Source of the DNA: Gammaproteobacteria bacterium
GTDB lineage: Bacteria; Pseudomonadota; Gammaproteobacteria; Ga0077536
Assembly: GCA_021773835.1 (NCBI GenBank)
Contig: JAJFJQ010000051.1
Location: forward strand, 1-64,000
DNA length: 64,000 bases
Reading direction: 5' to 3'
The position numbers and the translations under genes were made by a program. A model generated the notes under the pieces. The model was not told the DNA's origin. It did no database searches and saw only the letters and a program-made list of their open reading frames with translations. Shown piece by piece: positions 1,781 through 51,911 of this stretch. The stretch's first letter is position 1. Each line of letters starts with the position of its first letter.

Positions 1781-1783
1781 CGC

Positions 1784-3337: not shown

Positions 3338-3341
3338 TAAC

Positions 3342-5700: not shown

Positions 5701-5725
5701 ACTACGGAGGTTCGTGGGCCCCCTA

Positions 5726-5953: not shown

Positions 5954-6093
5954 GTTTATGTCCTTCGTGGAAGTTCGTGAGACTATTTTATCGCAAGTCC
6001 AACTATACGCACGTTATCATTTGATACTAATGGCAATCAGAGCGGACGGTGGTACGCTATTGACTACAAAGAGCAAGGCGGCATTGAGTAACA

Positions 6094-9456: not shown

Positions 9457-9621
9457 ATGTCGACCGAACAAGAAACGCTCCAAGCGTTCCTCGAAGAAGT
9501 TATGCGTATCCAGCGCAAATATGCGAACGAGCAGAGGGGTGTCCAAACTAATCGCCAAAGCGATATGAAGGAAACGCTTGAGCGTTTTTACGCAGCGGAG
9601 TCCGACGATGAAAATAACTAA
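9457..9621 (+). CDS. 54-residue charged protein, first gene of the PT effector block
   Basis: The frame encodes 54 residues, starting MSTEQETLQAFLEEVMRIQR and ending in an acidic ESDDENN tail. It follows a near-perfect ribosome binding site (AAGGAGG, about 10 bases before the ATG) and overlaps the start of the next ATPase gene by 14 bases. That combination argues strongly for translation. The sequence is strongly charged and looks all-helical, with no signal peptide or metal motif. I do not recognise the family. Its fixed position ahead of the ATPase suggests a small partner subunit of that ATPase or of the whole effector complex; this is inference. Confidence 0.75.
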   Translation: MSTEQETLQAFLEEVMRIQRKYANEQRGVQTNRQSDMKETLERFYAAESDDENN

Positions 9622-12087: not shown

Positions 12088-14231
12088 TGGTTTTAAGCGA
12101 TCTCCCTCTTAGGGCTGTTTATCGCTCGAACAACGACAATCTGTTAAGAGATTTCTATATCCCCTGCCTATCTGCGTCTAAACGATACGATCGTGCAGTC
12201 GGTTATTTTTCCGCATCTATGTTGTCTTACGCGGCACAAGGGCTATCTGCGTTTGTGGCGCGCGAGGGTTTCATGCGTCTAATTATCGGTGGAGCGCTTG
12301 ATGATCAAGACTATGTGGCGATCCAGGAAGGATACGCGCAAAAAGAAGTAAATGATCGGCTAGGCGATGAGTTCATTCGACAAATTCAGTCGATCGACGA
12401 CGCACTATTTCACCGGCGATTGGAATTGTTGTCGTGGTTAATCGCAAGTGGTCGACTCGAGATCAAAATAGCCTTGCGGAAACAGGGAATGTACCACGAG
12501 AAGATCGGGATTTTCGGTGACGAAAATGACGACCAAGTTGTTTTCCAAGGTTCTGCTAACGAAACCGCAGCTGGACTACTCCCAGACTTCAACTTTGAGT
12601 CGATTAACGTGTTCCCGAGTTGGCAAGAGGCGCTCAAAGAGCATGCCCAGCCTTATTTGGAAGGCTTTGAAGCGCTCTGGAATAATCAGGAACGAGACAC
12701 TATTGTTTTGGCGTTTCCCGAAGCTGCACACGAAAAGCTTATCGACATAGCAACTTATGTGTCGACGCCGATGTCGACCGAGCTTGAGATCGAACTTTGG
12801 GAGCGCCTCCAACGATCTCAATTTGCCAGGGGGCAGTCCACCGAAAATGTTCCGAATATACCCAGGCTTTATCGAGGTAATGATTTCGCGATCCGTCCGC
12901 ACCAAAAACGCGCCCTCGATGCGTGGAAGGCCAACGGTTTCCAGGGTGTCCTTGCACTTGCTACTGGTGCTGGAAAGACAGTGACCGCGATTTACGGGGC
13001 GACAAAAATCTATGAATCACATAAGCGACTGTTCCTTCTCGTAGCGGTTCCGTACATCAATCTGGCAGATCAGTGGATTGATGAGCTCCGAGAGTTCGGG
13101 ATTTCCGCAACGCGCTGCTATGGTGGGAGTCAAACTTGGCAATCGCAGTTCTCTGCTGATGTTCAAGAGTTTGAAGCCGGCGTAAAGTCGTTTTCCGCCG
13201 CAGTGGTCGTTAATGCGACATTATCGACAGGTAATTTTCAGGACATTTTGAAAAGAATATCCGGCCGCGCACTTTTGTGGATCGGGGATGAATGTCACCA
13301 TCACTCGGCATCTAAGCTCAATTCCAGTTTGCCTCAACAAGCGCATTTGCGACTCGGGTTGTCGGCCACACCAGAACACTATCTCAATACTGAAGCGAAT
13401 CAGCGACTTCGCGATTTTTACGGCCCCGTGGTTGCCGAATATTCTTTGGAAGATGCGCTTAATGACGGGATCCTTACACCGTATCGATATCACATCATCC
13501 CTGTTGAGCTCACGGAGAATGAGACTGAACGTTATGGAGAGATTAGTCAGAAGATTTCTACGCTCATGGCGTCTGGCGGTGGTATCAATGAGGAAAATCC
13601 CGGGTCGGACGCGCTGAATCAACTATTGTTTCAAAGAGCTCGGCTGCTCGGTGCTGCGCAAAACAAGCTTATTGAGCTGAATAGACTTTTGGGGGAGCGG
13701 GAGACGGAACCGCTAACCCTAGTGTATTGCGGCGATGGAAGCATCGAAGACCAAGACGACGAGCCTATTCGACAGATTGATGCGGTGACGCAGCTTCTCC
13801 ATGCAAATGATTGGCGTTGTGCTCGCTTCACCTCTCGCGAATCACGGGATCAGCGACTGCGGATACTCGATCAGTTCCGAATTAACGCGGTAGACGCCCT
13901 CGTAGCCATCCGTTGTTTAGACGAAGGGATCGATATCCCTGCGTGTCGTATCGCATTCATATTAGCGAGCAGTCGAAATCCAAAGCAATTTATACAACGC
14001 CGTGGTCGAATTTTGCGACGCGCGCCGGGGAAAGAAGAAGCGATAATTTATGATTTTGTCGTGCTTATACCGCCAATTTTGGCTAGTGGCTCCAATTTCG
14101 AACGCCAACTTTTAAGGAACGAGTTGAAGCGAGTTCGTGAATTTGCAGGTCTTGCCGTTAACCATACGGAAGCAATTTTGACCCTGCTTCCTTATCTCGA
14201 TGCATATGACTTGCTACACGATATCGTCTGA
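12087..14231 (+). CDS. PT-dependent restriction protein: PLD-like nuclease fused to SF2 helicase
   Basis: This 714-residue fusion resembles the family annotated as DNA phosphorothioation system restriction enzyme. Residues 1-200 form a phospholipase-D-like nuclease domain. Its H-x-K motif is HEK at 137-139 and it has a GSANET segment near 160. Residues 270-650 are a superfamily 2 helicase with Walker A ATGAGKT (about 292), DECH box at 401-404, GLSATPEH, and motif VI QFIQRRGRILRR. Only one HKD-type motif is visible, so the nuclease may act as a dimer, as single-motif PLD enzymes do. It is the last gene of the effector block and is translationally coupled to the gene before it. Inferred role: acts on invading DNA that lacks PT marks. 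Confidence 0.88.
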   Translation: MVLSDLPLRAVYRSNNDNLLRDFYIPCLSASKRYDRAVGYFSASMLSYAAQGLSAFVAREGFMRLIIGGALDDQDYVAIQEGYAQKEVNDRLGDEFIRQIQSIDDALFHRRLELLSWLIASGRLEIKIALRKQGMYHEKIGIFGDENDDQVVFQGSANETAAGLLPDFNFESINVFPSWQEALKEHAQPYLEGFEALWNNQERDTIVLAFPEAAHEKLIDIATYVSTPMSTELEIELWERLQRSQFARGQSTENVPNIPRLYRGNDFAIRPHQKRALDAWKANGFQGVLALATGAGKTVTAIYGATKIYESHKRLFLLVAVPYINLADQWIDELREFGISATRCYGGSQTWQSQFSADVQEFEAGVKSFSAAVVVNATLSTGNFQDILKRISGRALLWIGDECHHHSASKLNSSLPQQAHLRLGLSATPEHYLNTEANQRLRDFYGPVVAEYSLEDALNDGILTPYRYHIIPVELTENETERYGEISQKISTLMASGGGINEENPGSDALNQLLFQRARLLGAAQNKLIELNRLLGERETEPLTLVYCGDGSIEDQDDEPIRQIDAVTQLLHANDWRCARFTSRESRDQRLRILDQFRINAVDALVAIRCLDEGIDIPACRIAFILASSRNPKQFIQRRGRILRRAPGKEEAIIYDFVVLIPPILASGSNFERQLLRNELKRVREFAGLAVNHTEAILTLLPYLDAYDLLHDIV

Positions 14232-18168: not shown

Positions 18169-18768
18169 ATGGGTTCAGCACACAAGCGGCCACTGAGCGA
18201 TCCCGAAGTGCGCGTTAAGGCGCTTGAGTCACTACTGGTCGAAAAAGGCCTGATTGACCCGAAGGCCTTAGACGAACTGGTTGATACCTACGAGACCAAA
18301 GTCGGTCCCCACAATGGCGCACAGGTCGTTGCTCGCGCGTGGACCGATCCGGACTACAAGAAACGCCTACTCGAGGACGGTAGCGCGGCGATTGGCGAGC
18401 TCGGCTTCAGTGGAATGCAGGGCGAAGATCTTGTCGTCGTCGAGAATACGCCACGAGTTCACAACATTCTCGTGTGTACTTTGTGTTCGTGTTATCCGTG
18501 GCCGACGCTCGGTCTACCACCGGTTTGGTATAAGGCCGCGCCGTATCGCTCACGTGCGGTCAGCGATCCTCGCGGCGTATTGAAAGAGTTCGGGGTGAAC
18601 GTGCCGGAAGATAAAGAAGTTCGGGTTTGGGATAGCACCGCCGAACTCCGCTATATGGTGCTTCCCGAACGGCCCGCCGGGACCGAGGGGATGAGTGAAA
18701 AAGAACTCGCCTCACTGGTAACGCGCGACTCGATGATAGGCGTCGCCTTGGTTGAGGCGCAAGCATAA
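18169..18768 (+). CDS. nthA: Nitrile hydratase alpha subunit, cobalt type
   Basis: This 199-residue subunit hydrates nitriles to amides. The metal-claw motif VCTLCSC is present with Cys at 103, 106 and 108. Thr in CTLC marks the cobalt form (iron enzymes have CSLC). The following [21 protein letters not shown] and the C-terminal RPAGTEG plus TRDSMIGVA are standard for nitrile hydratase. The related thiocyanate hydrolase gamma subunit has YPR in place of YPW, so nitrile hydratase is favoured. A strong GAGGAGG site lies at 18154-18160. The beta subunit follows as two separate genes, and then the activator. The physiological nitrile is not known, and no amidase is seen in the window. Confidence 0.93.
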
Positions 18769-20802: not shown

Positions 20803-23800
20803 CTACGCTGCATGACTCGCTATATAGCTGCGCGCAAATTTTTCGAAATCACTCGTCTCGATATCGAAGCTGAGTTTCAGGCTTGGAATCGCTCTAAACT
20901 CGCTTGGCAAATATTGCGCAAGAATGCTGCTAATGCAGGCGCGGCTACTGATTATCTGCTCGGCTAACACCGCTTTAATGTATTTTCGGATCCGATAGGC
21001 ATGGACCTCTTCTATTTTGTGTACAGGATGGCCTTTCGCGATCGCACTCATTAATAGCCAATGAACCCACCAGTCTTGACCGAAGGTGAGCTCCCCCGGT
21101 GTGAAGGTCGTCACCATCTTCGGATCGCAGAAAAAATAACCATAGCCATCTGCGATGCCATCAAGCACTGCGGTTGAATTGACCGCGAGTTTATCGCCAT
21201 AAACAAGCGCGCCTTCTGGATAGCTGCCAACTGTCGCGCTTAACTTGTCCGCCGCGTCGATGATCACATCAGGTTTGATGATGCCGATGTAGTCTTCACT
21301 CGCGCTCGCCACGGCGCCCAGTAGTGAACTCAGTTTTATTGCGTCGGTGCCGTTTTCTAAATGAGCAACATCATCGGTAGCGATGAACGTGATATCTGGA
21401 AAGTGGCTACGCAGTCCATCTACCGCAGCGCCCGCATTAACCGAGCTTACCCGCCACCCTGCGTCGAGCCAGGTGCGAACGGCACTTGCCTGTTCTTCAC
21501 CCGCTTCCGGGCGCAAGCTCGTGACGATACTGATCGAGGGCATTCGCATTGCGGCTTTGCGGTGGGCGCGGCGCGGCGGTTTATCTTCGGTGCATCGCGA
21601 TCGATAAGTGAGTACCGGTTGGCTCGTTTCCCGCCATTCGGCAAGTTCAATCAAGGCGGGATCATCGAGGCGAATAGGATGGGGTGTTTCGTCGACTAAT
21701 TCCAACCCATGAGCCGCGATCGCCGCTACTTCACGCTCACGCAGTTGTTCGGCTTCCACTGTGTAGGCCCGCGCGTCGTTACCGACTTTTTGCCCTTCAT
21801 GGTAGCGATAGCCGCCGAGTGTCCACTCGAGCGTGTGTAGTTTCGCGTGGGCAAAAAAGCGTGTCCACAGATCCCAGTCTCCGGCGTAATAAAGCTCGGT
21901 TGCTAAGGATGCACCGGCCTTGTCCCATAGCGACCGTCGCCAGAACGTACTTTCTTGCTGGATTGTGGTGAGCTCGTTTGCATCTAGTTGTTTTTTGCGT
22001 GACCAATACACCGGATCGAGCACGCCGGTTAGCGTGCCATATTGATCCCAAAACGTGTAAAGACCGGTTAACCATTCGACTTGTGGACGCGTCGTGAATG
22101 CATAACTGACCTTCCAAAGTGCGTCTGGATGGTACTTATCGTCAGAATTCAACCACGCCATGATGTCGCCCGTACTGCGTTTGAGCCCGGCTTCGATCGC
22201 GGCGTATTGGCCATCATCGGGCTGACTTTGCCAGTGGCTCAAATACTTTTGATAGCGCTTGATTATCGACACGGATTGGTCGGTGCTGCCGCCGTCCATG
22301 ATGATGTATTCAAGATTCGGATAATTCTGCGACAAGATTGAATCGATACATGCTTCGAGATACTCACCCTGATTGAACGACGGCGTGATGATGCTCATGC
22401 GCGGTTGTTGGTTCGGGATCAATAAGATCGGCGCGCGTGGGAGCGATTCTACAATCGGTGTCTCAGGCTCACGATCGATCGGGTCGTCAGCCGTGAGGCC
22501 GGCTTCAACAGCATTCGCGACCTCTGTTGCATAGCCCGCGATTTCGGCGTCATCCGGTACCGCATCCATATATCGCGCAAGATACGCCAAGGTCTCACCC
22601 AGGCGGTTGATGGTGATTGCACTATCGATCAAGTTGATTAGCGCATTGCGCTCGGTGGGATCACTGTCAAGCGCGGCGATAAAATATGACATAGCGGCAT
22701 CCGTGTCGCCAAGTTGTGCGCTCAACACGCCAAGATTGTTATGCGCCGTTGCAAATTGTGGGTTGACGCGAAGTGCCTGTTCAAATGCCTGCTTGGCGGC
22801 GTTTAAATCGCCTTCGGCAAAAAACTGTTCGCCGTTCACGGTCAGCTGATCTGCGCTTTGCGTATCAGCTTCGCGTGTTGCGATCGCGGTAGCGACGATC
22901 GACGAGGCCTCGTCAAAATCGTATCCTAATCCGCGAAATACCGCTTCGCCGAGATGATCAAGCAGTTTGAGGGCTAAACCTGCGATTTCCGGATCGCGCA
23001 TGTGTTCGTGCCAGCACTCGGTGAAATTGGTAACAGGTCGATCGAAATTGAGTAAGTTGGTTTGGTCACCGAACTGACTGTTTGGCATGGTAGACGCGCC
23101 GTAGTCGATGATAGAGGCATCGAAGCCGATGCCGATCCTACCGCATAATCGCTCAATCTCGGCGCTGGGATCGGCGACCAGTCTTTCATAGCTAATACGC
23201 ACCGCAGCGTCACCTAATGCGGAGATCGTATCGAATATCCGTCTCGGCCCTTCAAAGCAATCAATCATATTTTTATTTTGCGTAAATGTTTCCACGTCCC
23301 CATCGAACCAGGTGTTCAAACAAGACGATAAAACGGCCAGTGGATGTCGTAGTAGAAACACATAACGCGCTGCCGGATAGATCTCGCGCAGCTCGGGTAA
23401 GATATGAAAGTAACGTGGCGTTTTATCGAGAAATATGCGTTTGCCGCTGCCGACTAATGCCGCGTTATAGAGGCGATCGCTCATCGCGCGTACGGCATCT
23501 GTAAAAACCGCGTCTCCACCGCTTATTTGGCTTAGAAAGCCGTCTAACGCTTGGCTCGTAAGCTTGGGTTCGTAATCGCTCGTTAATACTGAACCACGCC
23601 GGCTGTGACAAGGGTTTAACATAAGCCATGGCTCCGGTAAGGAGTGTATATCCGGGTGGCCGGCAAGGATCTGTTGCAGTAATGTTGAGCCGGAACGCGG
23701 CGTCGAGATCAGGAACGCGAGATTTGAACCCGGTCGCCAATCGTCGGATAAGGCCGGCATGGCAATTGAAGTCTCGGCGCGCCTGATCTGGGCCTCATCG

Positions 23801-24483
23801 TCTGCAAACGCCTGTAGCGCAAGCCTCGCGCTGCTCTCATAATCGCCGAGTTGCTTGCCGAGGCGCGGTGCATGCTTACGCAACACTTGCGCGGCGGCGG
23901 CCAGTGTCGCAACCGGTTGCCTGGAGCGCGTGATTGGTGTCGCGGCGATGGCTTGGCCTGGTGCCTGTAGACTTAAGTGTAGGGCTAGATCCCAAAACTC
24001 CAGCGGGGAAGTACCGGCGTCGAGCTCACCGAAAGACCGTGCCATTGCGGCGGGAAACAATAAGTGCTCAATCTCAAACCCGCGCTCAACGATCGCGCGT
24101 AGCGGGTCGTCGCGACCGTGAACTGCGGGACAACTAAAACTCCAGCGCTGCGCCCCGATCCCTGAGCATAGCAATTGCAGTGTGTTGTCATCCCAACAAC
24201 TATCGGGCGTGATCAGCGCGATCAGATCTGAGCGTGCCGCGGGTATCGCCGCATTGAGATCCGCGGCGACGGAAGGCGGATTGCCGTGACTTAGCAATCG
24301 GATCGGTATGGCGATGGTTGGCTCGAGGCCGCTTAACCAGCGCTTGACGTCTAGGCACGATGCGCTTGCGATGATGATTTCGGCAGGCGCAAGGCTTTGT
24401 GCCAACGCGCGCTCAAGGGTCCTACGGAATATGTCCCCAGAATGGGATCCGGAAATTACAATACTGATAGGGGTTTCGTTCAC
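20803..24483 (-). CDS. Giant glycosyltransferase/sulfotransferase/TPR fusion
   Basis: About 1226 residues from a GTG at 24483, just ahead of the conserved NETPISIVISGS start. An open frame runs on to 24810, but that part is rich in unlikely residues. Domains in order: a GT2-like region (1-240); a PAPS-type sulfotransferase (about 250-530) with STPRSGSTLLQ and a 3'-phosphate motif RYVFLLRHPLAVLSS; TPR repeats (about 550-680, NPQFATAHNNLGVL); a canonical GT2 domain (about 695-960, SIITPSFNQGEYLEACI, DGGSTD, then NSDDKY and GDWDLWTRF); and a third GT-like region (about 980-1226). It is divergent from the epimerase-like gene. I infer that it builds or sulfates a surface or flagellar glycan. Confidence 0.85.
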   Translation of the reverse strand: MNETPISIVISGSHSGDIFRRTLERALAQSLAPAEIIIASASCLDVKRWLSGLEPTIAIPIRLLSHGNPPSVAADLNAAIPAARSDLIALITPDSCWDDNTLQLLCSGIGAQRWSFSCPAVHGRDDPLRAIVERGFEIEHLLFPAAMARSFGELDAGTSPLEFWDLALHLSLQAPGQAIAATPITRSRQPVATLAAAAQVLRKHAPRLGKQLGDYESSARLALQAFADDEAQIRRAETSIAMPALSDDWRPGSNLAFLISTPRSGSTLLQQILAGHPDIHSLPEPWLMLNPCHSRRGSVLTSDYEPKLTSQALDGFLSQISGGDAVFTDAVRAMSDRLYNAALVGSGKRIFLDKTPRYFHILPELREIYPAARYVFLLRHPLAVLSSCLNTWFDGDVETFTQNKNMIDCFEGPRRIFDTISALGDAAVRISYERLVADPSAEIERLCGRIGIGFDASIIDYGASTMPNSQFGDQTNLLNFDRPVTNFTECWHEHMRDPEIAGLALKLLDHLGEAVFRGLGYDFDEASSIVATAIATREADTQSADQLTVNGEQFFAEGDLNAAKQAFEQALRVNPQFATAHNNLGVLSAQLGDTDAAMSYFIAALDSDPTERNALINLIDSAITINRLGETLAYLARYMDAVPDDAEIAGYATEVANAVEAGLTADDPIDREPETPIVESLPRAPILLIPNQQPRMSIITPSFNQGEYLEACIDSILSQNYPNLEYIIMDGGSTDQSVSIIKRYQKYLSHWQSQPDDGQYAAIEAGLKRSTGDIMAWLNSDDKYHPDALWKVSYAFTTRPQVEWLTGLYTFWDQYGTLTGVLDPVYWSRKKQLDANELTTIQQESTFWRRSLWDKAGASLATELYYAGDWDLWTRFFAHAKLHTLEWTLGGYRYHEGQKVGNDARAYTVEAEQLREREVAAIAAHGLELVDETPHPIRLDDPALIELAEWRETSQPVLTYRSRCTEDKPPRRAHRKAAMRMPSISIVTSLRPEAGEEQASAVRTWLDAGWRVSSVNAGAAVDGLRSHFPDITFIATDDVAHLENGTDAIKLSSLLGAVASASEDYIGIIKPDVIIDAADKLSATVGSYPEGALVYGDKLAVNSTAVLDGIADGYGYFFCDPKMVTTFTPGELTFGQDWWVHWLLMSAIAKGHPVHKIEEVHAYRIRKYIKAVLAEQIISSRACISSILAQYLPSEFRAIPSLKLSFDIETSDFEKFARSYIASHAA

Positions 24484-24588
24484 AAGTCGCTGCCTCTGCC
24501 GAATGATCTTCTGAGGAATGTGGATGCATAAACCGTTCCAGTTACTCGATCGCCTTTGGGGATCGGCGAAAGTCGGGTAGGTTCGACT

Positions 24589-24615
24589 CAATCGGCAACT
24601 AATATGGCAAATATG
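24589..24615 (-). promoter_or_regulatory. Possible sigma-28 promoter for the giant fusion gene
   Basis: On the minus strand CATATTTG is followed after 11 bases by GCCGATTG. The -10 half is good (GCCGAT) and the -35 half is weak. It lies about 100 bases before the chosen start at 24483. Confidence 0.3.
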
Positions 24616-24635
24616 CGGCCGAATGTTGCCGATAA
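24609..24635 (+). promoter_or_regulatory. Possible sigma-28 promoter for the RmlB-like gene
   Basis: A perfect sigma-28 -10 element, GCCGATAA, lies at 24628-24635, about 48 bases before the RmlB-like start. The -35 region, AAATATGC at 24609-24616, is only a partial match and shares bases with the opposing candidate on the minus strand. Confidence 0.4.
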
Positions 24636-24682: not shown

Positions 24683-25753
24683 ATGAAGCAAAAAAAGATC
24701 TTAATTACCGGCGAGCGTGGCTTTATTCGGCAATATATTGCCGAGGGCTTGCTCTGTGACCGGGAAAATGTCGTCGTTACCGTCGATTTATTGACACCCG
24801 AGGATCGCAATGCGGCTTGGCAAGCTGCATCACCGGACCCGCGCTGTGAACATCATCGGGTTGATGCGGGTGATGTCTCCGGCATTACGGCTATCCTTGC
24901 TGCATGCGCACCGCAGGTGATCATTAATCTGACGGCCGGGCACACCAGATCGGGGTTTTCCAAACCCTCACTGCCACCGTCACAGAATATTCTCGATACT
25001 ACGAATTTGCTCGAGGCAGCGCACCGCGCTAGCCCGCAAGCTGGCAGCGCGGTTACCGATGCAGCAGGATTACGTTTTGTTCAGGTGGCATGTATTGACC
25101 ATATCGAGGAACCCGACCGGATCGTTGGCGATCGGGCCACGTCAACCCATGACGACTATTGTGCTGGGGAAACGAGATCCCTAGCTGATCCGACAATCGC
25201 ATTGCGATTGGCCGAACAATCCCGACAGATGACGGGCTTGGTCGTCGTCAACATAACGACGGCAAACACATTTGGCCCATTTCAGCGCCTGGATCACTTC
25301 ATACCGCGCACGATCGAGGCCTTGATTCAGCAACGCTCCATTCGAGTACGGTGTGAAACGCGCGATTGGGTGTTCGTAGAAGATGCGGCAGATGCGATTA
25401 TCTTTTTGTCACAACGAGGTCTACCGGGTAGACCCTACGCGGTAGACAGCATCGGTGGGCGTCATTCCGACCTAGCGATTGCAGAACTGATTTGTGACCA
25501 ACTTGACCAGATCATGCCGCGTGAGGCGGGGAGTTATCGAGAACTCTTGTGCGTGTCTCCAACGCTCACAAATAGGCGTGTCGATGCGGTGACCGGCGGT
25601 CAACGATTGCGTGATGAATTCGATTGGAATCCGCTTAACGATTTTCATTGTGCGCTGGCCGCAACGGTGCGTTGGTATGTGGAGCAATCGACCTGGTGGG
25701 ACCATAGTCCATTGCTTGCGCGGTCCGCACTAGGCCAAGCTGCGCAAGGCTAA
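24683..25753 (+). CDS. RmlB-like nucleotide-sugar epimerase/dehydratase with degenerate catalytic motifs
   Basis: This 356-residue protein follows the extended short-chain dehydrogenase plan of dTDP-glucose dehydratase: start KQKKILITG, later NITTANTFGPFQRLDHFIPR, WVFVEDAADAI, and a YAVDSIGG segment matching YNIGG. Two motifs are off. The NAD motif GxxGFIG reads GERGFIRQ, and the catalytic YxxxK reads YCAGE, with Glu in place of Lys. The start at 24683 is chosen by homology; there is no good ribosome binding site, and a start at 24623 is possible. It may be a pseudoenzyme or a diverged enzyme using other residues. It is surrounded by glycosyltransferase genes. Confidence 0.75.
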   Translation: MKQKKILITGERGFIRQYIAEGLLCDRENVVVTVDLLTPEDRNAAWQAASPDPRCEHHRVDAGDVSGITAILAACAPQVIINLTAGHTRSGFSKPSLPPSQNILDTTNLLEAAHRASPQAGSAVTDAAGLRFVQVACIDHIEEPDRIVGDRATSTHDDYCAGETRSLADPTIALRLAEQSRQMTGLVVVNITTANTFGPFQRLDHFIPRTIEALIQQRSIRVRCETRDWVFVEDAADAIIFLSQRGLPGRPYAVDSIGGRHSDLAIAELICDQLDQIMPREAGSYRELLCVSPTLTNRRVDAVTGGQRLRDEFDWNPLNDFHCALAATVRWYVEQSTWWDHSPLLARSALGQAAQG

Positions 25754-25780
25754 TTAGCGACTCAAAAGCAGCAGTTCGCA

Positions 25781-27766
25781 TCAAACGGCATTCGCTGCGA
25801 GCGGTTTCACCTGTGTGCGCTTATCGCATGCGCGCAGCAATGCCTCTTCGAACTGTCGGGCGAAGCGTTCTGGATTACATAAGATCGAGTTTCTGATCTT
25901 TGACCGAATCGATACGCGCATCTGATTTAAGTGCGTGTGGTCGTTCGCAAGTTCGACACACCGAGCAACATAATCTGCGTGCGTCCAGCACGTGAGGTCG
26001 TCGAGCGCGAGATTCTTCAAGATCGAATAGGACACCCGCTGCGCATGCATCGATCCCGCCAAGGTGACCACGGGTACGCCCATCCAAAGCGCTTCGCAGG
26101 TTGTTGTGGTGCCGTTATACGGAAAGGTATCGAGCGCAATGTCTATGCCGTTATACGCGTCAAGGTGGTCGGTGCGCGATCCGCATACCGGTAGCAGATC
26201 AATTCTTTTGGGGTCGATGTCGTGGCTCGTAAACGCCTCGCGCAGATGGCCTTGGGTAATGGGATCGCCGGCGCGTCTCGATTTTAGTTTAAGACGGGCG
26301 TTTGGTACCGCTTTGAGGATTGCGCTCCATGCCTCAACCACCGTTGGCGTGATTTTGCGGATATTGTTGAAGCAGCCAAATGTAACCTGCCCGATGTCCG
26401 CGGCAGGTGTATCCGGCCGGCACTCGACCTCATCGAAATGTCCAAAGCACAGAAACGACTCTGGCAGTGTGAGTAAGGATTCGCTGTATTCGGTGCCATC
26501 GATGCAATCGGCATAGGGATCGGTAATGCGATAGTCAATGGTGTCGAGACCGGTCGTATTCGGATAACCCAAGTAGCTGATCTGCACCGGCGCTAAGCGT
26601 GAACGCATCACCGCGAGACGCGAATCACGTGTATGCCCGGCAAGATCGATCAAAATATCGATTCGATCGTCGCGGATCCGTTGGCCAAGATCGGCATCAC
26701 TCATTTGCGTAACATCGATATAGGCGGTTGCGGCGGTGGCGACTTCCTCAGTCAGCGAGTCGCTGCATGCGGAGTTCGAATAGCAATAGACGGCAAAGTG
26801 ATCGTCGTCATGCGCTCGGATCACGTTTCGGATGAAGAACCCAACCGAGTGCTCGCGAAAATCCGGTGATAAATAACCGATCCTCAAGCGCGAAAAGTCG
26901 ATCGAGTTTGCCGACGCAATCGGTTCTAGTTTGGGTTGGGGCGGCAACGCCGTTGCCCATGCACGATGGCAGGAATAGCTATCCGCCGGATCAACAGTGG
27001 TCAATGAGTTCAGCAAGATCAGCCCACCGCCTCTGGTTTCGTGTCGACTCATGGGGTCTTGTAATAACGCTAGAATCTTCTCTTGGCTTTGCTCAATGCG
27101 AGCCCAGTCGAAGGCATCGAATAAGGTTTCCCATGCGCCGATTGCAACGTCACCGGCTGCCGGCATCGCTAGGAGTTGTTTAGCCAAGGCATATTCTTCG
27201 GTAAAGCGATCCGTGCGGCGCAGGGTGGCAATAAGTTCGGACAGTGATTCAGGGTTCTCATTGAGTTGCAAAGCGCGCCGGTAGGTATCGATTGCGCTAT
27301 CGATTTGGCCTAGGCGCTGTAGGCAAGTACCGAGATTGTGCAATGCGATCCAATAATTGGGATCCGCCTCTAGCGCGGCGTTGAACCAGCGCTCAGCGTC
27401 GCAAAGTTGGTTTTGATCGAGAAAATTCTTACCGAGGTTGCACAATGCCACGGCATTCGAGGGTTCGATCGCCAGCACGGCACGATAATTATCCTCCGCC
27501 TCGTGGTGCTGATTCTGGGAATTCAACACCACCCCGAGATTAAGCCGCGCGCTGATCCGTCGAGGCTCTTTACGGATAACCTTGGTCAGCAGCTGTGTAG
27601 CGCTTAGTAGATCGTTACATTGGTAGGCGGCAAGACCTGCAAGATTTAGCGCATCGATATTCGTCGGCTTTTTTCTCAAGACACGCGATAGGATCGCCTG
27701 GGCCGCCGCTGGATCACCGGCACTGAGGTGCTGACCGGCTTGCTGGAGTAGCTTTGAAACATTCAT
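25781..27766 (-). CDS. TPR O-glycosyltransferase, SPINDLY/OGT type (GT41), probable flagellin glycosyltransferase
   Basis: This 661-residue protein has about five TPR repeats at residues 1-190 (such as ARLNLGVVLNSQNQHHEAED, SNAVALCNLGKNF, YWIALHNLGTCL). A Glyco_transf_41 catalytic region follows: LRIGYLSPDFREHSVGFF, LIDLAGHT, FGCFNNIRKITP, and LDTFPYNGTTTTCEALWMGVPV. GT41 enzymes add sugar to Ser or Thr of proteins. The start is the ATG at 27766 (MNVSKLLQQ), with an AGGGATC-like site; an open frame to 27883 would cross the promoter. A strong sigma-28 promoter match lies at 27795-27821, so the gene is probably made together with flagellin. Flagellin as the target is inference. Confidence 0.88.
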   Translation of the reverse strand: MNVSKLLQQAGQHLSAGDPAAAQAILSRVLRKKPTNIDALNLAGLAAYQCNDLLSATQLLTKVIRKEPRRISARLNLGVVLNSQNQHHEAEDNYRAVLAIEPSNAVALCNLGKNFLDQNQLCDAERWFNAALEADPNYWIALHNLGTCLQRLGQIDSAIDTYRRALQLNENPESLSELIATLRRTDRFTEEYALAKQLLAMPAAGDVAIGAWETLFDAFDWARIEQSQEKILALLQDPMSRHETRGGGLILLNSLTTVDPADSYSCHRAWATALPPQPKLEPIASANSIDFSRLRIGYLSPDFREHSVGFFIRNVIRAHDDDHFAVYCYSNSACSDSLTEEVATAATAYIDVTQMSDADLGQRIRDDRIDILIDLAGHTRDSRLAVMRSRLAPVQISYLGYPNTTGLDTIDYRITDPYADCIDGTEYSESLLTLPESFLCFGHFDEVECRPDTPAADIGQVTFGCFNNIRKITPTVVEAWSAILKAVPNARLKLKSRRAGDPITQGHLREAFTSHDIDPKRIDLLPVCGSRTDHLDAYNGIDIALDTFPYNGTTTTCEALWMGVPVVTLAGSMHAQRVSYSILKNLALDDLTCWTHADYVARCVELANDHTHLNQMRVSIRSKIRNSILCNPERFARQFEEALLRACDKRTQVKPLAANAV

Positions 27767-27794
27767 ATCGAGATCCCTTCCGCCCTGTGTGCGG

Positions 27795-27821
27795 ATATCG
27801 GCGAGTGTGATAATAAATTTA
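27795..27821 (-). promoter_or_regulatory. Sigma-28 (FliA) promoter of the SPINDLY-type gene
   Basis: On the minus strand TAAATTTA, then 11 bases, then GCCGATAT. The consensus is TAAAGTTT-N11-GCCGATAA; the TAAA core and seven of eight -10 bases match with exact spacing. Transcription would begin about 20 bases before the ATG at 27766. Confidence 0.75.
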
Positions 27822-28041
27822 GCGTTAGTAGCGACGGAATATTCGCCGGTGTAAGCGTTCCGGTTTGTCCGATTGGGCGGCAACGATTGCCGCGTCTATT
27901 TGCCGCGCTCAATCTAAGAAGCAAGTTCTCCCGCGCTCCGCCGGCGAGTTGCACAAGCTCGACGGCAATTCACGGTCCTTGGTATGAAATATGCATTACT
28001 CAGGCCGCCGTTTATGGATCTGACCGTCGTGGGAGGGAATT

Positions 28042-28779
28042 GTGCTCAGATACTACGAAGAACTCAGCAATCAGCAGTTAATAGATGCCTTTATTGCTCA
28101 ATACCTGACGACCGAAGGTTGGCTCGCGAGCGTCGAAGGGCGGGCGTCGCTTGGTAATACCGGCCCGGTACCATGGATCACCTATCCCGCATTGAAAATG
28201 CTGGAACGTATGGTCCAAGCACAGCATCGCGTATTCGAATACGGTGCTGGTAATTCGACGGTGTGGTGGTCATCACAGGTCGCGGAGATCGTTACCGTAG
28301 AGCACGATGAACAATGGTATCAAGAGACCCTAGCCCGTTGTGGACCACAAAATAACTTGATCCACGTGCCAATCGATGCGCCGGTGACGGCGAGCGCGGA
28401 GGCTGCACTCCAACCATTTTTTGATGCAGGGATCGATGAAGAACCCGGTCCCGATCCAGCACAGAATTTACGCGCGGGGCGGTTGTCCAAACCGTTCAGC
28501 GCGTTCGCCGCGACCTTGCTCGACTACCCCGACGGATACTTCGATATCGTTGTGGTCGATGGCATGGCGCGCGTGCTTACCGCGTGGCTCGCGGCACAAA
28601 GAGTGAATCCAGACGGCTTTGTGATTTTTGACAACTCGGATCGAGATTTTTACCAAGCCGGCTACGATGCGTTGACCACTGCCGGGTTCAAGCGCATAGA
28701 TTTTTGGGGACCGGGGCCAATTAACCCGTACGGTTGGTGCACTTCGATTTTCACCAAGAACCTAGAGGTGTTTGCATAA
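28042..28779 (+). CDS. Class I SAM-dependent methyltransferase-like protein
   Basis: This 245-residue protein has a motif I, RVFEYGAGNSTVWWSS (about residues 71-86), then VTVEHDEQWYQ for motif II and FDIVVVDGMAR for the post-II acidic strand. This pattern is seen in methyltransferases beside glycosyltransferases. The GTG start is supported by GGGAGG eight bases before it. The stop overlaps the next start (TAATG), so it is translationally coupled to the large fusion protein and probably works with it. A sugar hydroxyl or an amino sugar is a plausible acceptor, but that is inference. Confidence 0.8.
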   Translation: MLRYYEELSNQQLIDAFIAQYLTTEGWLASVEGRASLGNTGPVPWITYPALKMLERMVQAQHRVFEYGAGNSTVWWSSQVAEIVTVEHDEQWYQETLARCGPQNNLIHVPIDAPVTASAEAALQPFFDAGIDEEPGPDPAQNLRAGRLSKPFSAFAATLLDYPDGYFDIVVVDGMARVLTAWLAAQRVNPDGFVIFDNSDRDFYQAGYDALTTAGFKRIDFWGPGPINPYGWCTSIFTKNLEVFA

Positions 28780-31418
28780 TGTCTGCGTCAGACTTTGGCA
28801 TTTTGGTAACCGCCTACGCGCGCCCGGCACTACTGCAAAACGTGCTCGACAGTCTCGCCGCGCAAGAGGCCCTGGCAAGCACACATGTGTGGGTTGACGG
28901 CAACGCCGGGCGCAGTGAGCTTAGCGCGGCGACCGCTGATTGCGTCGCAATTGCGAATGGTTTCGCACCACTCGAAGTGCGTGCGCATGCCGGCCATCTC
29001 GGCATTGAAAAACTGATGCTCGATGGTCTGCAGGACATGGTTGCGCGCTATCGTCGTGTACTCGTGCTCGAAGACGATTGCTTTCCAAGTGTTAATGCCG
29101 TGGAAGAGTTTAAGCGGTCGTTGGAACGCGCTGATAAGGATCCGGAGATCTACTCGGTCTACGGGCATCCGTTTGGTATCGACAACGAGAATCGCGGGAT
29201 CGCTCGGTTCCAGGGTTGGGGTTGGGCGAGTACGGCGGAGAAGTTGATTCCGGTGATAGCGCAGCTGAAAGCGTTATTCGCCATGAACGAACAGGCTTAC
29301 CTGACGTTTGTCGAACAAAATCTGACCGACGATATTCGTGCACGTTTGGATATAACACCCGGACGCAATGTGGTCGATGTCCTCAGCCGGTTTTTCTCGT
29401 GGGATTCCGCCACTGCATTTGTTACCGCTGCGGCCGGCCTTAGGCATCAACCGACCGCCAAGCGGGTTGTCTACAATTGTGGACTTGGTGCCGACAGTGG
29501 TCATTTCAGCGAGCAGCAACGATTTCGCGAAGCACCGTTTAACATGATTGGACCGGAAGAGGTGTGGGAACACTTCGGTGCCCCACACAGCGATAGACGG
29601 TTTCCCTTCAATGGACTTGAGCGTCTAGATCAACGCATCGCGCGCTACTTGCCCGAGCGCAGCGGCACGTTTGTGGAGCTCGGCGCCTTCGACGGCGTTA
29701 CCCAGAGCAACACGCTTTATTTCGAGCGCCGCGGATGGCGCGGTGTTTTGATCGAACCGACGCCTGCCGCATTCGCCGAATGTCGCGAAAATCGGCCGTT
29801 GGCGCAAGTGTTTAATTGCGCCTGCGTTGATCAGGCAAATGCAGGGAAAAATGTTCGCATGACGGCGGTCGGATTGATGTCCATCGTTGACGGCACCCGC
29901 GATCAGGATACAGAAAACGAGTGGGTCGAGCGGGGCGAGCAATTACAGCAACTCCAAAGCGAAACGGTCGTCGTGCCAAGCCGCACGCTCAGTGATGTGC
30001 TCATCGAGGCGGGTATCAGCAGTGTCGATCTACTCTCGCTGGACGTTGAAGGCGGCGAGTTGGGCGTATTGCAGGGCCTCGATCTTTCTCGTATTCGGCC
30101 ACGGTGGATCGTTTGTGAAGACGCCTATGATGACACCGTTGGCAGTTTTCTAGCGCAGGCAGGTTACGCGATCGAGTCGATTCTGCTTGAGCGCACGCAT
30201 ACCCGTGATGTGCTTTATCGCGATATGGGTAAGGGCCTACCTTTGCTGGAAAGCATCGGTCAATCCTCGGAGAATCCATTGCAGTCGGCGACCGCTGAGC
30301 TGTGTTTGAACCCGCAGCGGGTGCTGAGCCCAGATGGTCTCGTATTCGATTTGCCGACGCGCGAGCGACAACCGCTGCATGAGACGACCCACCAGGACCT
30401 GAAGACGCTCGCGGTATTACCCGATCCATTCACTTTGCAGGACGTTGATCAGTTACTGGAAGACTGTAGTGGGTCGCGTAGCGCGAGCTTGGTAGCGGCA
30501 GGCTGGATCACCGATGCAAGAAAGGTCGACCGTGTGCAGCACTATGTGCGTAACCTCGTGCTGGAAACCTGCACGCCCTGTACCGCGAGTTGCGTTTTCT
30601 GTCCGGTATCCACCAATCCACGGCGACGGCCTCGCATTATGGAGATGGACTTATTCGAACTCATCTTATCGCGCTTCGACGGACACAAACTGAATTTCGT
30701 GACCTTGAACATCTATAACGAGCCTCTGCTTCATCCGCAGTTCTTGCTTCAAGCACAGCTACTGGCTGACCATGGACATCCTCTAGCGCTATTTACAACC
30801 GCCGCCATACTAAGCCCGGAAATCTCCGACGGCCTCGCAAACATCGGTAATGTCGACCGGATCGTGATTAATTGCCCGTCGACCGATCCCGTCGAGTACA
30901 AGCGACTAATGGGGGTAAAGATGCCGCGGGATCTGGTAGCGAATTTAAAGCATGCGATCGACGTTGGCTTGCCGATCCAGATATGTGTCAACGGTTTAAC
31001 CGAGTCTACTGAGCGTAGCGACGCGATCGTTGCGGCTCTGGCGGAAGATGCAAATCGTAAACCGAATGCGTTTACGAACTACACACATAACCGTGCGGGT
31101 GCGATCCAAGGCACAGAGAATCTGGATGATCCGATCTGGACCGGCGAGTTGCGTGGTTGCCGTCGAGCAGTCGAAGACGTCACCGTCAATGTTGACGGCC
31201 AGGTGTTTCTTTGTTGCGAAGACTTCCATCAGAATCACATTCTCGGCGATCTCCGTACCCAGACCTTAGATGAGATCCTCAATAGCGAGCGGGCAGTTCG
31301 CTACCGACGCACAATATTCGGCCTGGACCCAGCCCCCGCCGATTTTATTTGTCGCAAGTGCGCAGAATGCTGGCTTCCGCAGACTGACACCCACTTACCT
31401 AAGACAAAACTGCTGTAG
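28779..31418 (+). CDS. Three-domain fusion: glycosyltransferase, FkbM methyltransferase, radical SAM/SPASM
   Basis: This 879-residue protein starts at the ATG sharing a base with the previous stop. Residues 1-270 are GT-A-like (GILVTAYARPALLQNVL, then VLVLEDDCFPS). Residues about 290-490 are an FkbM-type methyltransferase (GTFVELGAFDGVTQSNTL, LIEPTPAAF, DLLSLDVEGGE). Residues about 590-879 are a radical SAM domain with the cluster motif CTASCVFC (Cys 601, 605, 608) and a SPASM-like C-terminus (GCRRAVEDVTVNVDGQVFLCC, then CRKCAECW). Joining sugar transfer, O-methylation and radical chemistry in one chain is unusual. I infer modification of a surface glycan or glycoprotein in the cytoplasm. Each domain call is firm by motif; substrates are unknown. 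Confidence 0.87.
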   Translation: MSASDFGILVTAYARPALLQNVLDSLAAQEALASTHVWVDGNAGRSELSAATADCVAIANGFAPLEVRAHAGHLGIEKLMLDGLQDMVARYRRVLVLEDDCFPSVNAVEEFKRSLERADKDPEIYSVYGHPFGIDNENRGIARFQGWGWASTAEKLIPVIAQLKALFAMNEQAYLTFVEQNLTDDIRARLDITPGRNVVDVLSRFFSWDSATAFVTAAAGLRHQPTAKRVVYNCGLGADSGHFSEQQRFREAPFNMIGPEEVWEHFGAPHSDRRFPFNGLERLDQRIARYLPERSGTFVELGAFDGVTQSNTLYFERRGWRGVLIEPTPAAFAECRENRPLAQVFNCACVDQANAGKNVRMTAVGLMSIVDGTRDQDTENEWVERGEQLQQLQSETVVVPSRTLSDVLIEAGISSVDLLSLDVEGGELGVLQGLDLSRIRPRWIVCEDAYDDTVGSFLAQAGYAIESILLERTHTRDVLYRDMGKGLPLLESIGQSSENPLQSATAELCLNPQRVLSPDGLVFDLPTRERQPLHETTHQDLKTLAVLPDPFTLQDVDQLLEDCSGSRSASLVAAGWITDARKVDRVQHYVRNLVLETCTPCTASCVFCPVSTNPRRRPRIMEMDLFELILSRFDGHKLNFVTLNIYNEPLLHPQFLLQAQLLADHGHPLALFTTAAILSPEISDGLANIGNVDRIVINCPSTDPVEYKRLMGVKMPRDLVANLKHAIDVGLPIQICVNGLTESTERSDAIVAALAEDANRKPNAFTNYTHNRAGAIQGTENLDDPIWTGELRGCRRAVEDVTVNVDGQVFLCCEDFHQNHILGDLRTQTLDEILNSERAVRYRRTIFGLDPAPADFICRKCAECWLPQTDTHLPKTKLL

Positions 31419-34600: not shown

Positions 34601-35587
34601 ATGAATAACTTAAACCTGGGTTTAGAGCCCGATCGGCCAAATGCCTATTCGGCGCCTAAGTTCCCGTCCATTAGACGCCGGCGACTTGAAACCTTGCAAA
34701 TCAATCTTGGTTATCGTTGCAACCAGGCGTGCACACATTGTCACGTCGACGCTGGACCCAATCGCCGCGAAGAGATGAGCTCATCGACCATCGATACCGT
34801 GCTTGAGTTCGTCACCGCGCACGCCATCAATACACTAGATTTAACCGGCGGAGCGCCTGAATTAAACCCGGGATTTCGCCGTTTAGTGTTAGCTGCACGA
34901 AGCCTCGATGTAAGCGTTATTGATCGTTGTAATCTGACCATTCTCGAAGAGCCTGGACAAGAAGATTTAGCCGAGTTTCTGGCGCTTAATGGCGTATCCA
35001 TCACGGCGTCGTTGCCATGTTACACACAAGCCAATGTCGACTATCAACGTGGCAAAGGTGTTTTTGAGAAAAGCATTCGAGGTCTGCTTGAGTTAAACGC
35101 ACTTGGCTACGGGTTACCTGACTCAAGACTTGAGCTTAATTTAGTCTACAACCCCACTGGTCCATTTTTGCCGCCGGCTCAGGTTGAGCTGGAACAGACC
35201 TATCGCGATGAGCTGCAAGAATCCTTTGGGATCCAGTTCAGCCGCTTATTAACGATTTCGAACATGCCTATCGCTCGTTTTCGGCACGCCTTGGAGCGGG
35301 ACGCAGCGCTCGATGCCTATCTTGAATTATTGGTAGATTCCTACCGCGAGGCGAACTTAGAGCAAGTCATGTGTCGCAACTTGCTGAGCGTTGATTGGCG
35401 TGGTTATGTATATGATTGTGATTTTAATCAGATGCTTGGGCTACCGTTGGGCCACACCACCGGTAGTACGCATCTATCCGACCTACTCACCTCGAAGCTT
35501 GAGGGCGAACCGATCAGCGTTGCCGATCATTGTTACGGCTGCACGGCGGGGCAAGGGAGTAGCTGTCACGGTGCGCTTCGCACCTGA
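34601..35587 (+). CDS. arsS: Arsenosugar biosynthesis radical SAM protein ArsS
   Basis: This 328-residue radical SAM enzyme has the cluster motif CNQACTHC (Cys 40, 44, 47) followed by HVDAGPNRRE, a hallmark of the ArsS family. The C-terminal half has further cysteines (MCRNLLSVDWRGYVYDCDFNQ, then DHCYGCTAGQGSSCHG) typical of the family's extra cluster domain. ArsS is thought to attach a 5'-deoxyadenosyl group to a methylated arsenical on the way to arsenosugars. Its usual partner ArsM, an arsenite methyltransferase, is not in this window. Two transferase genes follow closely, making a three-gene operon. Confidence 0.9.
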   Translation: MNNLNLGLEPDRPNAYSAPKFPSIRRRRLETLQINLGYRCNQACTHCHVDAGPNRREEMSSSTIDTVLEFVTAHAINTLDLTGGAPELNPGFRRLVLAARSLDVSVIDRCNLTILEEPGQEDLAEFLALNGVSITASLPCYTQANVDYQRGKGVFEKSIRGLLELNALGYGLPDSRLELNLVYNPTGPFLPPAQVELEQTYRDELQESFGIQFSRLLTISNMPIARFRHALERDAALDAYLELLVDSYREANLEQVMCRNLLSVDWRGYVYDCDFNQMLGLPLGHTTGSTHLSDLLTSKLEGEPISVADHCYGCTAGQGSSCHGALRT

Positions 35588-35602
35588 TACGTCGATCCCG
35601 GC

Positions 35603-36301
35603 ATGCGCCGAATTTCGATCATCATTCCCGTCCGTAACGAAGCGGTAATTATCGCGGCAGCCTTAAACGCGCTCAAACATTGGCGGGAGAGGGGCCACGA
35701 AATTGTGGTTGTAGATGGATCAAGTACTGATGCGACCTGCACCATCGCGGCCCCACTATGCGATCTCATGATTTCCACGGAAGGTTGTCGTGCGATCCAA
35801 ATGAACGCGGGGGCGGTGTCGGCGAGCGGCGATATTTTATTGTTTTTGCACGCCGACACGAGACTGCCGTCAAACGCCGAAGCCGAACTATTATGTTTCG
35901 ATGATAATTGCCAGGAATATTGGGGACGTTTTAACGTTCGGCTAAACGCCGATTCGGTGATTTATCGGATAATCGAGACCTTAATGAATTGGCGATCACG
36001 GATCACTGGTATTGCCACCGGTGATCAGGCGATATTCGCTACGCGCACGCTGTTTGAACGTAGCGGTGGATTCCCATCCATTGCATTGATGGAGGATGTT
36101 GCGCTCAGCACCAAGTTGCGTGCAAGGTCCGCACCGATCTGTGTGAACGCAACGGTGACGACCTCCGCGCGGCGATGGCAACGAGATGGCGTGATGGTGA
36201 CGATTCTTAGAATGTGGTGGCTTCGCGCTGCATTTTTTTTCGGCGTCTCGCCGGATCGATTGCGCGCCGTCTACGATCGATCTGTCACGGTGGACCAATG
36301 A
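35603..36301 (+). CDS. GT2 glycosyltransferase of the rSAM/selenodomain-associated type
   Basis: This 232-residue protein has a GT2 fold: ISIIIPVRNEAVIIAAALNAL, then EIVVVDGSSTDAT, and LLFLHADTRLP, with a later MEDVALSTKLR acidic site. It matches the transferase family that recurs beside ArsS-type radical SAM genes (transferase 2, rSAM/selenodomain-associated). It starts 15 bases after the arsS stop, and its stop overlaps the next start (ATGA). Inferred role: sugar handling in arsenosugar formation. In other genomes the same pair occurs without arsenic genes, so this is not certain. Confidence 0.85.
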   Translation: MRRISIIIPVRNEAVIIAAALNALKHWRERGHEIVVVDGSSTDATCTIAAPLCDLMISTEGCRAIQMNAGAVSASGDILLFLHADTRLPSNAEAELLCFDDNCQEYWGRFNVRLNADSVIYRIIETLMNWRSRITGIATGDQAIFATRTLFERSGGFPSIALMEDVALSTKLRARSAPICVNATVTTSARRWQRDGVMVTILRMWWLRAAFFFGVSPDRLRAVYDRSVTVDQ

Positions 36302-36897
36302 CCGGCGCGCTAATTGTATTCGCGCGCGAGCCATTTGCCGGTAAGGTAAAAACACGACTCGCGGCAGATATCGGCGGTCACAGGGCTGCGGACATCTACG
36401 CGCAGTTATTGTCGCGTACTCTAGATCTGGTGGAGCGGTCACAATTTCGAATGCGCTACATGTTTGTGGCAGACACCGATGAAACTGACTACTTTGCGGC
36501 GCGACTGGTAGCAAAAACTTGGCAAATTCGTACGCAATGTCAAGGTGATATCGGGCAACGTATGCACCATGCGATCGAGTCAGTACTGCCGCACCATGAT
36601 TTCGTGGTGCTGATCGGTTCCGACATTGCCGATTGCGAGATAGCCGATCTTGACCAGGCGTGGACCTCACTGTCCGACGCGATCAACACCGCCGTTGTTG
36701 GCCCGAGTGTCGACGGTGGTTATTGGTTGATTGGTTTACGTGAGCCGCAAGCAAATATTTTTCACGACATGCCCTGGAGCACGGGTCGTGTGTTCCGGAC
36801 AACCGTGTCGAGAATGGAAGAGCTTGGACTTGAAGTTTGCTGCCTGGCGCCGCGTCACGATATCGACGTAGTCGAAGACTTACGCCATCTCGCCTAA
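36298..36897 (+). CDS. DUF2064 glycosyltransferase-like protein of the rSAM/selenodomain-associated type
   Basis: This 199-residue protein has a nucleotide-sugar-transferase-like start, ALIVFAREPFAGKVKTRLA, then VVLIGSDIADCE and GPSVDGGYWLIGL, the DUF2064 hallmarks (transferase 1, rSAM/selenodomain-associated). Its start overlaps the previous stop by four bases. It completes the trio with arsS. The convergent PilZ gene ends 11 bases after its stop. The catalytic role is unproven in the family as a whole. Confidence 0.86.
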   Translation: MTGALIVFAREPFAGKVKTRLAADIGGHRAADIYAQLLSRTLDLVERSQFRMRYMFVADTDETDYFAARLVAKTWQIRTQCQGDIGQRMHHAIESVLPHHDFVVLIGSDIADCEIADLDQAWTSLSDAINTAVVGPSVDGGYWLIGLREPQANIFHDMPWSTGRVFRTTVSRMEELGLEVCCLAPRHDIDVVEDLRHLA

Positions 36898-50284: not shown

Positions 50285-50311
50285 TTAAGTTCCCTAGGCG
50301 GCCGCCGATAG
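50285..50311 (+). promoter_or_regulatory. Sigma-28 promoter of the flagellin gene
   Basis: TTAAGTTC, 11 bases, GCCGATAG. This matches TAAAGTTT-N11-GCCGATAA at 12 of 16 positions with exact spacing. Transcription would begin near 50318, giving an untranslated leader of about 205 bases before the start codon at 50523. Confidence 0.8.
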
Positions 50312-50522: not shown

Positions 50523-51911
50523 ATGCCACAAACGATTAATACCAATATCTTGTCGCTGACGACGCAGCGCAACCTCAACCGCACGCAGAACGAACTAACG
50601 ACATCAATCACCCGCTTATCTTCCGGATTGCGCGTCAACAGCGCCAAGGATGACGCCGCGGGCCTAGCCATTAGCGATCGATTCAACACGCAGATCCGAG
50701 GCCTTGACCAAGCAGTACGAAACGCCAATGACGGTGTATCGTTCTCTCAGGTCGCTGAGGGTTCCTTGTCGACAATTTCTGACGCGCTGCAACGAGTACG
50801 TGAGCTGGCCGTACAGTCGATCAACGACACGAACTCGCCGCAGGATCGCCAATCGTTGAATAACGAAGTCCAACAGCTGATTTCAGAAGTCAACCGTGTG
50901 TCCAGCGCGACACAGTTTAACGGTCAAAACATCCTCGACGGTTCATTGTCCAGCCTGACGTTCCAAATTGGCGCCAATCAGAACCAAACCTTGAGTTTGA
51001 CTGGCGTTGACGCTCGGGGCCAGCAACTCGGCGCACGAGTGGTGGAATCTGGATCAATTAACCGTACTGATTTGGACGCATTAATCGCGGCCGATGACGT
51101 TGTGATTAACGGTGCCGCGGTCGATCTATCGGGCCTCGCCGCCGGCGACTCGGTGACGGATGTCATCTCCGCAATCAACGACGTTTTTTCAACGTCAGAC
51201 ATCGTCGCATCAGCAGAGACGACAACCACTTCGGGTGATCTAACCTATTCGTCAAATGCCGCGACCCAGACCATTTCGTTAAATGGTGTGAATGTTGATA
51301 TTGGCGCGGGTGCCGCTGTCGACGATGTAGTATCGGCGATCAATAGTGCGTCCGACGCCAGCGGTGTTACCGCGACGAACAACGCCGGATCCGTGGTGCT
51401 GACGTCCGACGGCCGCGATATTGAAGTTGTCGATGGCGCGACCAATGGTGGTGCTGACATCCTGGGCGGTGATGAGGACTTTTTTGCCGGGATTGTGTTC
51501 TCCGGCGACGTTGGGCAAGCCATCAGCCTCACCGGCTCGTTTGATAATACCGCGGGCGTTTCAGGATTGACGACCATAGCTGGCACGTTTGCCGATGAAG
51601 TTTTAAATGGCGTCAACGTTCTAACGGCTACTAATGCGAATGATGCACTACGTACGGTCGACTTCGCGCTGCAACAGGTGAGTAATTTGCGCTCCGAGTT
51701 TGGTGCGACCCAAAACCGTTTGGAAAGCACGATCGCTAACCTCCAGGTAGGTGCAGAGAACTTCTCCGCTGCACGCGCCCGTATTATCGATGCGGACTTT
51801 GCGCAGGAAACAGCGCGTTTCACTCGTGCTCAAGTACTCCAGCAGGCCGGTATATCGCAGGTCGCCCAGGCGAACTCACTGCCACAGTTGGTGTTGGGTC
51901 TACTCGGGTAA
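50523..51911 (+). CDS. fliC: Flagellin FliC
   Basis: This 462-residue filament subunit starts PQTINTNILSLTTQRNLN and has the N-terminal D0/D1 helices (SSGLRVNSAKDDAAGLAISD). The C-terminal helices are NRLESTIANLQVGAENFSAA, RIIDADFAQETARF, then LQQAGISQVAQANSLPQLVL. The middle (about 175-380) is variable, rich in Ser, Thr, Ala and Asp, with two flagellin hook-IN-like repeats (VVINGAAVDLSG and QTISLNGVNVDIG). Its many exposed Ser and Thr are likely glycosylation sites. AGGAG lies nine bases before the ATG. Regulated by the sigma-28 promoter upstream; flaG, fliD and fliS follow. Confidence 0.97.
   Translation: MPQTINTNILSLTTQRNLNRTQNELTTSITRLSSGLRVNSAKDDAAGLAISDRFNTQIRGLDQAVRNANDGVSFSQVAEGSLSTISDALQRVRELAVQSINDTNSPQDRQSLNNEVQQLISEVNRVSSATQFNGQNILDGSLSSLTFQIGANQNQTLSLTGVDARGQQLGARVVESGSINRTDLDALIAADDVVINGAAVDLSGLAAGDSVTDVISAINDVFSTSDIVASAETTTTSGDLTYSSNAATQTISLNGVNVDIGAGAAVDDVVSAINSASDASGVTATNNAGSVVLTSDGRDIEVVDGATNGGADILGGDEDFFAGIVFSGDVGQAISLTGSFDNTAGVSGLTTIAGTFADEVLNGVNVLTATNANDALRTVDFALQQVSNLRSEFGATQNRLESTIANLQVGAENFSAARARIIDADFAQETARFTRAQVLQQAGISQVAQANSLPQLVLGLLG

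Follow-up and report, generated by a model that had tools for sequence, protein, structure and literature searches.

SPINDLY (SPY) of Arabidopsis is a GDP-fucose protein O-fucosyltransferase, in which K689 is assigned to the guanine, A731 makes room for K689 and Y744 is assigned to the fucose (PMC10027727, PMC9715652). These three residues select GDP-fucose over UDP-GlcNAc (Kumar et al. 2023, PMC10027727), Tyr744 being singled out in PMC9715652 too, and their counterparts in human OGT are L866, R904 and C917 (PMC10027727, PMC9715652). SPY-like genes are conserved in bacteria, very few of them having been characterised (PMC10027727), and O-fucose in bacteria was described in 2025 as still to be explored (PMC11853108). 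In the literature searched, which did not include van der Wel et al. 2023 (Glycobiology), the key reference for bacterial Spindly, we saw no report that assigns a substrate to a bacterial SPY. On the flagellar side, glycosylation islands for flagellin in Enterobacteriaceae carry GT41 (SPINDLY-domain) proteins, often with methyltransferase domains, for which GlcNAc derivatives are predicted (De Maayer and Cowan 2016, PMC4875605); the text of that paper makes no mention of fucose. In Caulobacter crescentus, the TPR domain of FlmG binds flagellin (PMC7591256).

The window, meaning the whole stretch of 64,000 nucleotides that was analysed, carries on its minus strand (25781..27766) a gene for a 661-aa protein with TPR and GT41 parts, here called P0001, a SPINDLY-type protein glycosyltransferase. 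A 700-aa frame with a TTG start was rejected as the gene in favour of the ATG at 27766, and a probable ribosome-binding site, GGAAGGGA (27774..27781, minus strand), was read from the sequence 7 nt before this ATG. TPR-like helical repeats occupy residues ~1-175 of the protein, further helices reach to ~273, and the catalytic domain covers ~290-643. The original prediction of a SPINDLY-type GT41 enzyme proved correct: the curated GT41 model PF13844 matches P0001 with 180 bits, the cut-off being 25, and Arabidopsis SPY is its best solved homologue by phmmer (E 2e-111, with human OGT at 4e-77 and XcOGT at 3e-43). The AlphaFold model (pLDDT 91.8) has a GT-B fold with TPR and resembles SPY and OGT structures; in a Foldseek comparison of this model with the PDB, ranks 1-8 were all Arabidopsis SPY chains. 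P0001 is thus nearer to SPY than to OGT in both sequence and structure.

P0001 and Arabidopsis SPY (PDB 8DTF, 8DTI, 7Y4I) are both built from TPR and GT-B parts, are 40% identical in the catalytic domain and share the donor-site residues, including K689, A731 and Y744, whereas the 11 TPRs of SPY are replaced in P0001 by a shorter arm and SPY I592 by Leu. The two also differ in setting, since SPY acts on nuclear regulators and P0001 is a bacterial protein with a flagellar promoter and context and a predicted secreted substrate. Human and Xanthomonas OGT have the fold and the catalytic Lys/His in common with P0001, but only 21-26% identity in structural alignments, and human OGT has L866/R904/C917 where P0001 has K/A/Y.

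At the donor site, K495, A537 and Y550 of P0001 correspond to K689, A731 and Y744 of SPY, and S307, V308, K471 and E558 correspond to S496, V497, K665 and E752, with every one of these SPY positions matched; H306, H534 and T554 are further SPY-like residues of the site. The L866/R904/C917 signature for UDP-GlcNAc is absent, and an O-GlcNAc donor is disfavoured by these residues. The earlier description of the enzyme as a generic Ser/Thr glycosyltransferase was therefore right about the GT41 family and incomplete, as the donor-site residues are those of an O-fucosyltransferase. In the genome, a gmd gene (606 bits, over the cut-off) adjoins the gene for the GDP-L-fucose synthase Fcl (492 bits vs a cut-off of 500). 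Of the four genomes in the clade to which P0001 belongs, G000, G128 and that of Mariprofundus have both genes; G248, with a completeness of 77%, has part of gmd at the end of a contig. Because GDP-fucose genes are common (over the cut-off in 4-6 of 14 control genomes), their presence in the clade gives weak support, a check passed rather than strong evidence for fucose. Based on the SPY-type residues together with the gmd/fcl pathway, GDP-fucose is predicted to be the most likely donor of P0001.

It is possible, on the unlikely side, that P0001 is a FliA-controlled flagellin O-glycosyltransferase with another donor, such as UDP-GlcNAc, a UDP-hexose, another GDP-deoxysugar or an activated nonulosonate as in FlmG. 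Kumar et al. (PMC10027727) report an intermediate prokaryotic GT41 group with mixed key residues; the A731 position is M, Y and G in other members of the clade, and the lack of a clade-wide triad counts against the fucose reading; furthermore, the dehydratase-like gene at 24683 suggests local making of another sugar. Against this, the equivalents of K689, Y744, V497, E752 and S496 in P0001 are all SPY-like, the genome has both gmd and fcl, and a clash between Y744 and GlcNAc is reported (SPY structure papers PMC10027727, PMC9715652). GDP-fucose remains the donor that we favour.

We then considered the promoter. As originally predicted, and exactly as written there, a FliA (sigma-28) type motif, TAAATTTA-N11-GCCGATAT, lies upstream of the GT41 gene (27795..27821, minus strand), with TAAATTTA at 27821-27814, a gap of 11 nt and GCCGATAT at 27802-27795. 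Its -10 element ends 28 nt before the start codon at 27766. Placing the motif about 20 bases upstream of the expected transcription start was mistaken, as the -10 ends ~6 nt upstream of it. The promoter of fliC, TTAAGTTC-N11-GCCGATAG (50285..50311, plus strand), was used as a yardstick, and both sites match the E. coli FliA consensus in 13 of 16 positions. A matrix built from the textbook E. coli consensus was used to scan both strands of the 439,594-bp contig, and its top three sites were those of fliC (19.6 bits) and of the GT41 gene (19.0 bits) and one lying before a CheZ-like gene (17.6 bits). Simulated contigs of matching dinucleotide composition, 60 in all, contained on average ~0.03 sites at the level of the GT41 promoter. 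Three sites in the 6.1-Mb genome fit the pattern TNAANTT-N12-GCCGATA exactly, two of them being the fliC and GT41 sites, and FliA itself is encoded in the genome (271 bits, over the cut-off, C47:77453), 50 kb from the GT41 gene. The site is thus TAAAGTTT-N11-GCCGATAA-like, at a proper distance from the gene and beyond chance. No sigma-70-like promoter was found in 25600-28200, and sigma-54 sites, also looked for, were no more than expected by chance. Given the second rank on the contig, the ~0.03 expected sites, the three genome matches and the encoded FliA, the assignment of a FliA promoter to the GT41 gene is strong by sequence, and the gene is probably switched on together with the last flagellar genes. 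No strong FliA site was found before the other genes of the GT41 cluster, which counts against our main reading. A FliA-like CAAATATG-N12-GCCGATAA at 24608-24635, 48 nt before the likely start of the dehydratase-like gene at 24683, has a perfect -10 and a poor -35, and was too weak to be claimed as a promoter (12.9 bits, with ~30 such sites on the contig).

The nearest relatives of P0001 link the gene to flagella beyond its promoter, since they adjoin flgK-flgL or fliC. P0001 forms a clade with L105, L197 and L177 (bootstrap/SH-aLRT 100/100), of which L105 (its genome apparently being G248) and L197 (from G128) belong to one genus of Granulosicoccaceae and L177 to Mariprofundus sp. EBB-1. In L105 and L197 the GT41 gene is the third after flgK-flgL, and the highest-scoring FliA site of each locus (20.3 bits) stands immediately before flgK; in L177 the GT41 gene is divergent from fliC. 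All four members are thus flagellar-linked or have a FliA-type site, and the clade is tied to the late flagellar genes in three arrangements: an own FliA promoter, a probable FliA operon and a position next to fliC. Among 36 genomes of the taxonomic family to which the window belongs, flagellin was found in 18 of the 19 with GT41 and in 7 of the 17 without it (Fisher p 0.0008, shared ancestry ignored), and in ~10 family genomes GT41 adjoins fliC or lies within a few kb of it. In a separate scan of 79 mostly SPY-type loci, flagellin or hook genes were present within 10 kb in ~9, so not all bacterial SPY-like proteins are linked to flagella.

These data also bear on whether the FliA-like site may be a chance match and the gene part of a cluster for surface polysaccharide or general glycosylation that has nothing to do with flagella. 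The gene lies ~12 kb upstream of the flg operon, past arsenosugar genes, and for most SPY-type relatives elsewhere no flagellar gene lies within 10 kb; moreover, its 23-kb distance from fliC and the lack of a P0001 orthologue in three genomes of the same genus count against our main reading. We judge a chance site to be very improbable, however, as the site ranks second in 439 kb with 0.03 expected, stands at the correct distance from the ATG without a sigma-70-like alternative, and every other clade member is flagellar-linked. A link of the GT41 gene to the late flagellar genes is therefore the reading that we retain.

In the taxonomic family of the window, other GT41 genes commonly stand beside fliC. 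In nine loci (L063, L064, L065, L068, L069, L070, L071, L073 and L074) a tandem GT41 pair is divergent from fliC, L074 having one GT41 and a second, truncated one. Like P0001, these proteins are GT41 and flagellin-linked; unlike P0001, they have Cys at the Y744 position (18/18) and Ile, Leu or Met at K689, form a separate clade and lack a FliA-like site upstream. Because of this lack, conservation of the promoter could not be footprinted with them. P0001 was rejected as their orthologue by these residues and by the trees; forcing P0001 together with them gave a borderline p of 0.064 in the AU test. The tandem proteins represent a second, OGT-like type of flagellin-linked GT41. A further observation concerns a 2-Mb relative (L080, G007:C6:46000-65999), in which several flagellin genes stand in a row beside one GT41 gene.

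Around the GT41 gene, the window encodes several enzymes with a potential role in glycan processing. A sulfotransferase-TPR-GT2 protein of ~1200 aa (20803..24489, minus strand; the frame is open to 24810 and the GTG start at 24489 is assumed) is a candidate for glycan extension or sulfation. The best NCBIfam model for its sulfotransferase part is NoeE, far below the cut-off. NoeE is a fucose sulfotransferase of Nod factor synthesis, and the match is only a hint. An SDR protein resembling NDP-sugar 4,6-dehydratases/epimerases (24683..25753, plus strand) stays below family cut-offs, as does a methyltransferase-like protein (28042..28779, plus strand) with a weak PF13578 match. The latter is followed by an 894-aa protein (28734..31418, plus strand) whose domain matches give a GT-like N-terminus, an FkbM methyltransferase and a radical SAM/SPASM part, an unusual three-part fusion. 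The GT41 of the window is unfused, and domains that are fused to it in relatives occur here as neighbouring genes: L105 is a GT41 fused with a methyltransferase and a sulfotransferase (Pfam), and the C-terminal part of the GT41 proteins L177 and L197 reads, from the sequence, as an FkbM-type methyltransferase. As the same functions are fused in relatives, the GT41 and its neighbours may belong to one common pathway.

Other genes of the window were recorded as well. The arsenosugar genes (34601-36897) include a radical SAM ArsS over the cut-off, followed by open frames for GT2 (35603-36301) and DUF2064 (36214-36897), whose overlap in different reading frames may point to a frameshifted fusion. 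A dnd (DNA phosphorothioation) locus at 674-14231 comprises DndB, DndC, an SMC-like ATPase, the dnd-associated methyltransferase TIGR04096, a second SMC-like ATPase and a helicase with a PLD domain. A nitrile hydratase alpha chain is encoded at 18169-18768, and small frames after it represent a possible beta chain.

The predicted substrate is the flagellin FliC (462 aa; 50523..51911, plus strand). The 235-residue centre of FliC contains 49 Ser/Thr (20.9%), not above the conserved N-terminal part (21.3%); the original argument from a large Ser/Thr-rich surface domain was thus partly right, and Ser/Thr richness is a weak argument for flagellin as the target. Flagellin, or another late axial protein, as the best target was nevertheless supported, and independently, by the gene neighbourhoods of the clade; the predicted promoter does tie the enzyme to the late flagellar class, as had been claimed, but does not by itself name flagellin. 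A main substrate other than flagellin, either FlgK/FlgL or a cytoplasmic regulator linking motility to signalling, as for plant SPY, with the gene still under FliA control, appears improbable. In Granulosicoccaceae the gene comes after flgK-flgL, not fliC, and SPY modifies many nucleocytoplasmic proteins in eukaryotes; on the other hand, fliC adjoins the gene in Mariprofundus and in several more distant SPY-type loci, and decorating partner domains are more in keeping with a surface glycan than with a regulatory mark.

Our best explanation, which we rate somewhat above even, is that P0001 is a FliA-timed, late-flagellar O-fucosyltransferase of the SPINDLY type with flagellin as its substrate, and that the fucose is probably decorated afterwards. 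FliA RNA polymerase would transcribe the GT41 gene at the same stage as flagellin, and the TPR arm of cytoplasmic P0001 would hold newly made flagellin before export, a step modelled on the binding of flagellin by the TPR domain of FlmG. The GT-B domain would then transfer L-fucose from GDP-fucose, supplied by Gmd and Fcl, whose genes lie in another part of the genome, to Ser/Thr residues of flagellin, or alternatively of FlgK or FlgL. The neighbouring enzymes (GT2 and sulfotransferase, methyltransferase, FkbM) would probably extend, methylate or sulfate the fucose.

Compared with the known systems, FlmG is likewise a soluble TPR and GT-B enzyme for cytoplasmic O-glycosylation of flagellin, a likeness in architecture and role only, and differs by its pseudaminic acid donor and cell-cycle control (PMC7591256). 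The GT41 proteins of the enterobacterial islands, compared here by their published description, share with P0001 the family, the flagellin locus, frequent methyltransferase domains and a predicted glycosylation of flagellin, but are located between fliC and fliA, with GlcNAc derivatives predicted (PMC4875605). GT41 in flagellin islands is thus already known; the new elements here are the strict set of SPY residues, the promoter for FliA and the clade tied to late flagellar genes.

In conclusion, we tentatively propose, at slightly less than even confidence, a bacterial SPINDLY with flagellin as its natural substrate, in which plant-type O-fucosylation, timed by FliA, would start a methylated or sulfated flagellar glycan. 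The predicted fucose donor, absent from the original prediction, is the most interesting part. A flagellum-linked SPY-like protein under FliA control offers a concrete substrate, abundant and easily purified and weighed, and so makes the question directly testable. If the proposal is true, one branch or more of the SPY-like proteins that are widespread in bacteria would have a role, O-fucose would join the sugars that initiate flagellin glycans, and a plant signalling enzyme would gain a simple bacterial model.
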